This document shows, piece by piece, positions 16,663 through 18,579 of a DNA stretch of 64,000 bases. Position numbers and translations under genes: made by a program. A model generated the notes under the pieces. That model made no database searches, was not told the DNA's origin, and saw nothing but the letters and a program-made list of their open reading frames with translations. Origin of the DNA: Celerinatantimonas diazotrophica (GTDB taxonomy: Bacteria > Pseudomonadota > Gammaproteobacteria > Enterobacterales > Celerinatantimonadaceae); NCBI RefSeq assembly GCF_004339545.1, contig NZ_SMGD01000013.1:248001-312000 (forward strand), read 5' to 3'. Within the stretch, counting starts at the first letter, position 1, and each line of letters starts with the position of its first letter.

Positions 16663-17385
16663 TCAGGCCCTATCTATAAGCAACCGCATTTTAACAATCT
16701 CATCCTCAGCAATCTCATAGCGCTGATATTCATCTTGGCCAGCGGCTCCCATAAAAACCTGACGATTGATAAAGCGCATGTTCGAGGGCTTAGAGACACT
16801 TGCTGATGAGTGAAACTCGCTCACGCCAGCCTCAAGCAATTTTGGCAAAGTAGCCGCTCGTACGCCTCCTCCAACCATCACGGTCGGCCCATCAATCGCC
16901 AGTAACTTTATAATGAGATCAAGCCCGGCAACGGCGGTGTTTTGCTGACCTGAGGTTAGAACCCGTGAAACACCAAGTTGGGCTAATAGCTGATAACAAG
17001 CGATGGGATCTTTGGTCATATCAAATGCGCGATGAAAGCACACTTCAAGCCCTTTGGCTGCTTCTAACAATTGTCCCATAGCGGCAATATCAATTTGCCC
17101 ATCGATGGTTAGTGCACCAAGCACTACGCCCCTTAAATGAAATGCTTTAACTTGGGCTATATCTTCACACATCTGAGCAATGTCATTTTGGCTATAACAA
17201 AAATCGCCCCCATGAGGACGAATCATGACCATCACTGGCAGATTCGAGCATGTGGCTAATTTCATTAAACCAAACGAAGGGGTTAATCCCCCTTCCCCAC
17301 GAGCACAACACAGTTCAATACGCTGGGCCCCAGAACGTTCAGCCGCTTGAATGTCATCATAACTAAAACAGCAAATCTCCAACAT
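16663..17385 (-). CDS. cutC: CutC family protein (PF03932, copper homeostasis / (5-formylfuran-3-yl)methyl phosphate synthase-like TIM barrel)
   Basis: 240 aa, TIM-barrel protein. The N-terminus LEICCFSYDDIQAAERSGAQ RIELC and the segments GGLTPSFGL, VMIRPHGGDFCYS, GVVLGALT, CFHRAFDM and RVLTSGQ are family hallmarks. The original link to copper tolerance is weak, and the true biochemical role is unsettled. A MITE-like element occupies most of the 261 bp between the upstream ROK kinase gene and this one, so any former co-transcription has been altered. The ribosome binding site upstream of the ATG is poor. Confidence 0.92.
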   Translation of the reverse strand: MLEICCFSYDDIQAAERSGAQRIELCCARGEGGLTPSFGLMKLATCSNLPVMVMIRPHGGDFCYSQNDIAQMCEDIAQVKAFHLRGVVLGALTIDGQIDIAAMGQLLEAAKGLEVCFHRAFDMTKDPIACYQLLAQLGVSRVLTSGQQNTAVAGLDLIIKLLAIDGPTVMVGGGVRAATLPKLLEAGVSEFHSSASVSKPSNMRFINRQVFMGAAGQDEYQRYEIAEDEIVKMRLLIDRA

Positions 17386-17404
17386 GATTAAGTACGCTCT
17401 ACTA

Positions 17405-17667
17405 GGGACTGTTGATCTTTGGTGGTTGAATTTTGTTCAAATTAAACGCATTTTGAACGCGGCGCCCCCTGCGACGCTTAATGAGTGAAGCAAGCAGGGG
17501 GCAACAAAGTTCAGGATGCGTTTAAATGAACCCCAAGGGCAGTATCTGAGAGGAATTTATCCGGCGTTAAACGTTCTTTGTGGAGAATAACTACACGGCA
17601 CAACGTTTGCCTTGCCTAAATCCCTCTCAGATTTCTGCAAACCTAATCACAAAAGGTCAACAGTCCC
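17405..17667. mobile_element. MITE-like element with 16-bp terminal inverted repeats and TA flanks
   Basis: 263 bp bounded by GGGACTGTTGATCTTT (17405-17420) and AAAGGTCAACAGTCCC (17652-17667), inverted repeats with one mismatch, flanked on both sides by TA. It has no coding capacity. Inside are two long hairpins. The first pairs 17435-17458 with 17509-17531 and contains a perfect GCCCCCTGC / GCAGGGGGC stem (17464-17472, 17494-17502). The second pairs ATCTGAGAGGAATTTA (17544-17559) with TAAATCCCTCTCAGAT (17617-17632). TA duplication suggests mobilisation by an IS630/Tc1-like transposase in trans; this is inference. The right end supplies the last six codons and stop of the ROK gene. Confidence 0.8.
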
Positions 17668-18579
17668 TAGCAAAGAGGCGCCAATTAAACCGCCATCTTG
17701 ATGAAATATTCCGGGGACGATCAACGGTGCATTAATGGGATTCAAAATCAGCGCTTTCACTTGCTCATCTAAACGTGCAATCAGTTCAGGCTCACTCGCT
17801 AAACCACCACCAACGACCACAATTGAGGGACTGAGAATATTCATCATCAACGCGAGCGGTTCACTCACGATAGCCAACCAGACTTGGATCGTTAGTTCAG
17901 CTTGGACATCCGATTGTTTATCTAAAGTCATAATTTGTTGACTGGTTAACGACTGTTGATGAAGTTGCAAATGCAACCGTTCGATTCCTCTCGCCCCAGC
18001 CAGTGTATCAAGGCAACCGGTCTGACCACAGCCACAGCGAATTCGTGGCAGATGAATTAAGCGACCATGGATAGAAACTTCAGTGCGAGTAATCGGCCCA
18101 TGCCCCCATTCAGCCATAACGCCGCCGCGACCTTCAATAATTTTGCCATTAATAACCAAACCACCACCAATCCCTGTGCCTACAATTGCCCCAAGAACAA
18201 TCGGCAAATTGCTCCCTTTTCCCAAATGCGCCTCAGCAAGGGTAAAACAATCTGCATCATTGGCAATATAGACTGGTCGTTTCAATAACTGTGAGAGTTC
18301 TCGTCGCAATTGATGGGTATGATAAGCACGAATATTACCTGCAAAAACCGTATCGGCAACATGATCAACGATCCCAGTTGTCGAGATAGCTAACGCTGAA
18401 TCACGATCATAGTTGGATTGCCACTGCTCAATCAGTGTCACGAGGGCTTGACTCAATGCTTGCCAACTCTCGTTAGGAGTAGCAATTTTATCCAACAGCT
18501 TGATCTGTCCAGGCTTTGCTGAAACCGCAAACTTGATAAACGAGCCGCCAATATCGGCACAAATGACAGGTTTCACCAT
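17647..18579 (-). CDS. ROK family sugar kinase (NagK-like)
   Basis: 310-aa cytosolic sugar kinase. ATP-binding ADIGGSFIKFAV at the N-terminus, catalytic Asp in IANDADCFTLAEA, GTGIGGGLVINGKI, EWGHGP, and the ROK zinc motif CGCGQTGCLDTLAGARG. It resembles N-acetylglucosamine kinase (NagK) or glucokinase/fructokinase of the ROK family; the substrate is not fixed by sequence. The last residues GTVDLL and the stop are encoded by the terminal inverted repeat of the MITE at 17405-17667, so the native C-terminus has been replaced, probably harmlessly as the fold is complete. Confidence 0.88.
   Translation of the reverse strand: MVKPVICADIGGSFIKFAVSAKPGQIKLLDKIATPNESWQALSQALVTLIEQWQSNYDRDSALAISTTGIVDHVADTVFAGNIRAYHTHQLRRELSQLLKRPVYIANDADCFTLAEAHLGKGSNLPIVLGAIVGTGIGGGLVINGKIIEGRGGVMAEWGHGPITRTEVSIHGRLIHLPRIRCGCGQTGCLDTLAGARGIERLHLQLHQQSLTSQQIMTLDKQSDVQAELTIQVWLAIVSEPLALMMNILSPSIVVVGGGLASEPELIARLDEQVKALILNPINAPLIVPGIFHQDGGLIGASLLGTVDLL

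Follow-up and report, generated by a model that had tools for sequence, protein, structure and literature searches.

The hairpins of bacterial MITEs are usually regarded as incidental, and the elements themselves as transposon ends that have decayed. Among the repeats described so far, the CIR elements of Caulobacter and Brucella are nearest in shape to the element reported here: they are intergenic and consist of two long stem-loops joined by a linker, with a phylogenetically conserved RNA model (PMC2229807). CIR elements are, however, listed without terminal inverted repeats and bear GANTC sites, whereas our element has clear terminal repeats and TA duplications, and its arms are inverted homologues of each other (a comparison of descriptions, not of sequences; PMC2229807). 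The nearest model for function is offered by ERIC and Correia (NEMIS), which are likewise TA-flanked, MITE-like repeats with folding transcripts; Correia elements measure 107 or 155 bp with repeats of 24 bp, and the repeats of ERIC measure 7 bp (PMC2229807, PMC10969869). RNase III cleaves Correia RNA, and an ERIC element at the 3' end changes how the mRNA decays (PMC10969869). A review describes both as a single end-to-end stem-loop (PMC2229807, PMC10969869); the element described here differs from them in length and terminal repeats and has two inward arms instead of one stem-loop. MITEs derived from the IS5 family (NF033580-type transposase, TA duplication, YTAR target) resemble it in being short, in lacking an ORF, in sharing their ends with an IS of their own genome, and in their high copy number, but the interior of our element is not an IS remnant; it consists of two inverted copies of a covarying unit, which occurs with many different ends. 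A literature search found no description of the family; ISfinder was not covered, and an earlier name is possible. No part of the family is as widely conserved as the hairpins, which are inverted copies of each other and covary like a functional fold beside many different terminal repeats; an old question becomes testable with them, namely, whether bacterial MITEs bear selected nucleic-acid structure of their own.

We analysed a stretch of 64,000 nucleotides of Celerinatantimonas diazotrophica DNA (the window), in which a preliminary description made from the letters alone had placed a nonautonomous element at 17405-17667. These coordinates proved exact (263 bp), and the features read there were all found: the 16-bp terminal inverted repeats are real and match at 15 of 16 positions (GGGACTGTTGATCTTT and GGGACTGTTGACCTTT), the TA flanks are present (CTA on the left, TAG on the right), no ORF of 60 aa or more lies within the 263 bp, two long hairpins fill the interior, and there is no second copy in the window, with further copies elsewhere in the genome. 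The features of the locus are as follows (CM R2 is a covariance model built from unit A only).

16663..17385, - strand: cutC (Pfam CutC, 1.3e-61), downstream of the kinase and parted from it by the insertion
17403..17404, no strand: left TA target-site duplication; target YTAR, with TA on both flanks in 140 of 170 elements of one set and 207 of 300 of another
17405..17667, + strand: whole MITE, end A left and end B right; paired ends and flanks, and 40 or more near-full-length copies in its own genome, 95-98% identical
17405..17420, + strand: terminal inverted repeat, end A (GGGACTGTTGATCTTT); the two IS ends in the same genome have the identical sequence
17434..17532, + strand: structured unit A (hairpin 1), running inward from end A; covariation, RNA fold z of -9.2, CM R2 90.9 bits in L001
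17531..17539, no strand: small linker hairpin CCC-CAA-GGG between units A and B, from the consensus fold
17538..17639, - strand: structured unit B (hairpin 2), running inward from end B; covariation, CM R2 55.7 bits (E=9e-12), CM R1 89.5 bits
17647..17667, - strand: 3' end of the ROK kinase gene, comprising its last six codons (GTVDLL) and the TGA stop, within end B
17647..18579, - strand: ROK-family sugar kinase (Pfam ROK, 2e-56); C-terminus VERT changed to GTVDLL, judged from the reconstructed empty site
17652..17667, - strand: terminal inverted repeat, end B (GGGACTGTTGACCTTT); paired ends and 16-bp end matches
17668..17669, no strand: right TA target-site duplication, with the same flank counts as the left

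We consider it probable that this is an IS5-mobilised MITE whose body consists of two inverted selected units, most likely folding in read-through transcripts. As DNA, the whole element folded at -66.9 kcal/mol, compared with -31.1 +/- 3.7 for shuffles (z -9.7), and the RNA folds of the inward strands were similarly extreme (z -9.2 for hairpin 1 and -7.2 for hairpin 2). A scan for promoters and intrinsic terminators found no promoter-like site in the element; neither conserved hairpin serves as the stem of its terminator-like sites, and its A/T runs are misplaced for intrinsic terminators acting on the hairpins.

The reading as a nonautonomous mobile element was supported by its own genome. 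A search with the 263 bp, as the preliminary description had proposed, gathered the copies counted in the list, a number that is a lower bound. The 16-bp end had 139 matches in this genome at no more than one mismatch (reversed control, 0), and a covariance model recovered 129 hairpin units, with about 60 A units and 69 B units; the element itself occurs about 60 times. An exact scan with a genome-specific 32-mer gave no match. Some copies are flanked by TTA and TAG, so the duplication can only be TA, and a duplication of four bases is impossible. The element has four hallmarks of a MITE, namely, dispersed near-identical copies, terminal inverted repeats with a target-site duplication, no transposase gene of its own, and a partner with matching ends. 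Shorter derivatives of 178, 189, and 204 bp also occur in this genome, in which both ends and unit B are kept and unit A is lost at its base (L037, L038, L039, L040, L041, and L031:94-282), and one very short fold-back remnant has little beyond the two ends (L066:537-610).

The partner is an IS5-family insertion sequence. Several contigs of the same genome break within it, and both of its ends bear 16 bp identical to the MITE end, as the search for a transposase with matching ends had been meant to find; an intact gene cannot be read there because the assembly breaks at the IS copies (contig ends C1, C3, C8, C9, C10, C13, and C15). In relatives, both 16-bp ends lie on one IS of about 855-874 bp with flanks CTA...TAG, and the 252-aa product of an intact copy (L104:1497-2370) is an IS5-family transposase (NF033580, 5e-82; Pfam DUF4096 and DDE_Tnp_1). 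From the common ends and target we infer, without transposition data, that such a transposase may mobilise the MITE in trans, in which case it would recognise the common 16-bp ends and insert the element at YTAR with duplication of TA. The unit model found nothing significant in the autonomous ISs examined; the sole strong match in the IS search was a MITE lying beside an IS end. At that place, at the start of contig 3 of the same genome (L031:1-282), the IS5-family end and the 189-bp derivative have one CTAG in common, apparently a tandem insertion, each in the other's target. Origin of the MITE by deletion from a parent IS was rejected, since the unit model detected no homology in the ISs examined; nor is the body a transposase gene in decay.

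Next, we considered the interior. A model built from unit A alone was run on 22 elements. In 21 of them it matched the whole of hairpin 2 on the opposite strand, with scores of 40-63 bits and E values mostly between 1e-7 and 1e-13; the lone exception scored 19 bits, and wrong-strand matches did not exceed 33 bits. The reverse model, built from hairpin 2, scored up to 45 bits on hairpin 1, and a profile comparison of the two hairpins gave 44, where shuffled columns scored 25 +/- 3.5 and the same-strand control scored 24. Furthermore, the unit A model found the inverted pair in genomes outside its training set, and the geometry is fixed (29 + ~100 + 6 + ~101 + 29). These comparisons show that the body is made of two inverted copies of one structured unit of ~100 nt, each read inward and 5-6 nt apart, a relation that the preliminary description missed.

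We evaluated the pairing within each unit on a tree of 123 nonredundant elements against null simulations in which substitutions were placed randomly on branches. At P values of 0.005 or less, the null was exceeded by 20 of the 32 variable pairs of hairpin 1 and by 14 of the 27 of hairpin 2, and pair-preserving double changes fell on 168 and 128 branches, respectively. Counted independently in alignments of 50 sequences, 92.9% (hairpin 1) and 92.4% (hairpin 2) of the cells were paired, values reached by 0 of 500 shuffles, and the covariation scores were 0.554 for unit A and 0.470 for unit B (no more than 0.116 with the partner slid). Unpaired columns showed no overall excess of conservation over paired ones; only specific loop bases are invariant. 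The covariation shows that selection maintains base pairing within the unit. Template-switch correction is known to act on long imperfect palindromes, and the pairing could instead be kept up without selection if switching between the arms corrected one arm to the other, a process that would suit the many double changes on single branches. Such correction should nevertheless erase internal loops, yet the internal loops of the units, with their near-invariant bases, persist across genera; it also predicts no strand preference, which is not what the wobbles described below show. We therefore regard mutational upkeep as improbable and keep to selected pairing.

If pairing is selected in one strand, that strand should tolerate G-T (G-U) wobbles but not A-C mismatches, and without selection both should be equally frequent. 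We counted changes from Watson-Crick pairs to GT or AC on the window strand, using one parsimony reconstruction, such that the counts are not fully independent. The GT:AC ratio was 114:49 in unit A, 50:88 in unit B, and 32:34 in the terminal repeats; sign-flip tests by column gave P values of 0.003 for hairpin 1 and 0.048 for hairpin 2, and the difference between the two had a P value of 0.00015. The bias in unit B is weak by column (10 columns versus 13). The units would thus seem to act each in the strand that is read inward, in agreement with their inverted order. Selection on the inward strand is thus supported by the wobbles, which cannot separate RNA from single-stranded DNA.

Two roles for the fold have to be weighed. 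In the RNA reading, a transcript entering from either flank would fold the first unit it meets, and the folded unit would process, stabilise, or limit the read-through RNA, handling that may make insertion beside genes tolerable. This role is inferred by analogy with the RNase III cutting of Correia RNA and the altered decay of ERIC-tailed mRNA; there are no transcription or processing data, and we advance it tentatively. In the other reading, the units would raise mobility by folding at the DNA level, either in single strands or as cruciforms, while the element is replicated or transposed, with no role in RNA. Single-stranded DNA of the inward strand would be equally expected to show the wobble bias, but the partner ISs examined lack the unit, which is thus not generally required. 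IS5-family transposases, moreover, are DDE enzymes and are expected to act on double-stranded ends. We find the DNA-level role somewhat unlikely in itself, and nearly as likely as the RNA role.

We also looked into how far the family extends. Related elements of 262-265 bp (65-73% identity) were present in 16 of 60 relatives, and the genera among the matches listed for the 29-base pattern of end B included Shewanella, Vibrio, Pseudoalteromonas, Colwellia, Thalassotalea, Psychromonas, Grimontia, Enterovibrio, Neiella, Rheinheimera, Alishewanella, Oceanisphaera, Paraglaciecola, Aliidiomarina, and others. Within the order, the family consensus matched in 130 of 394 genomes, belonging to 29 of 115 genera. 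The unit models matched in 42 of the 274 genomes searched from the class and in 70 of 299 from the phylum, some of them outside the Gammaproteobacteria, and the folded unit is thus conserved in many proteobacterial families. At about 20 of 27 distant loci, none in the training set, a second unit lay on the opposite strand a few nucleotides off, and the distant elements measured about 263-266 bp where both ends could be read. The length of 262-266 bp holds over the Gammaproteobacteria and beyond, at unrelated loci, and a covariance model would annotate many copies that are now unannotated.

The ends of distant members differ (GGGCCTGTTAACACTA, GGGGGCGTTCTCAATT, GGGCCTGTTCACCCTA, GAGCCTGTCTCATAAA, TATACCCAAGTGACTTC, and others), each forming an inverted repeat in its own element. 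Most resemble IS5-type ends that have diverged, and they have TA on their flanks; those of the TATACCCAAGTGACTTC type do not and possibly belong to another transposase family. Distant members retain the paired core and their ends change; exchange of ends and divergence together with the transposases were not distinguished. A pair kept in fixed geometry beside many different ends is what would be expected if the units were part of the mobile machinery, as the DNA-level role proposes. It is also possible, though we would not insist on it, that the inverted pair is a phylum-wide mobile module of fixed geometry that has persisted over deep time with the ends of different transposases, the core being conserved and not the ends, and that it acts on transcripts entering from either side. 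Two loci (L425:345-607 and L414) carry the core between TATACCCAAGTGACTTC-type ends, which are very unlike the GGGxCTGTT type. Outside the main group, a single unit was detected between inverted ends at five loci (L419, L420, L421, L424, and L404). Longer size classes recur as well, with spacings of 277-278 and ~310 bp (+15 and about +48 bp; for example, L161, L186, L153, and L194).

Insertions survive mainly between genes, at stop codons, or in last codons. With genes called by a simple longest-ORF rule, 183 insertions could be judged: 130 were intergenic, 28 lay exactly in a stop codon, 11 among the final 20 codons, and 14 inside genes. Of the YTAR sites in the same DNA, by contrast, 71% fall within genes. 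Stop codons were enriched over other noncoding YTAR sites (odds ratio 2.0, P value = 0.002), since the element begins with G and TA plus this G restores TAG. Last-codon insertions would end the protein with a few residues and a stop from the element end; most give an R-x-C-stop end, in another frame, and among those listed only the element at 17405-17667 gives GTVDLL. Orientation relative to codirectional genes showed no significant bias (26 versus 15), a result that would also suit the DNA-level role. The element in this way documents the reshaping of protein C-termini by stop-codon and last-codon insertions.

The ROK kinase is one such case. That its GTVDLL end and stop come from one terminus of the element, and that the element separates it from cutC, had both been proposed and were borne out; that the element supplied the 3' end of the gene is supported by the empty site rebuilt by removing the element and one TA, in which the kinase has a different C-terminus, ending GASLLVERT* with its TAA 2 nt before the cutC start. 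The insertion turns this end into GASLLGTVDLL*, with GTVDLL in place of VERT. Comparison with an empty site in a related strain, which the preliminary description had called for, succeeded in part: in the only same-genus genome searched (G001), kinase and cutC adjoin without the element, and the kinase ends GAAIYASQQ, 39 bp from a shortened cutC. Because the proteins there are only ~50% identical, this locus shows absence and is not a base-exact empty site.

The adjacency of kinase and cutC and the conservation of the structure in distant species might suggest an independent small-RNA gene or an attenuator of the kinase-cutC operon in place of a mobile element. The early reading had likewise set a MITE against an RNA conserved in distant species; the mobile, multicopy element stood, and the fold is conserved too, but at nonorthologous loci. 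The 40 or more copies at unrelated loci with target duplications, the absence of the element from the orthologous locus of the same-genus genome, and the lack of any Rfam family at or above gathering score over the element or its distant copies all speak against such a gene. As the primary explanation it is refuted by the dispersed copies, and we give it almost no credence beside a mobile element. A t44 RNA (Rfam) recorded at L403 lies outside the element. In the same-genus genome, the cutC beside the ROK kinase appears shortened or frame-broken (L268:1177-1485).
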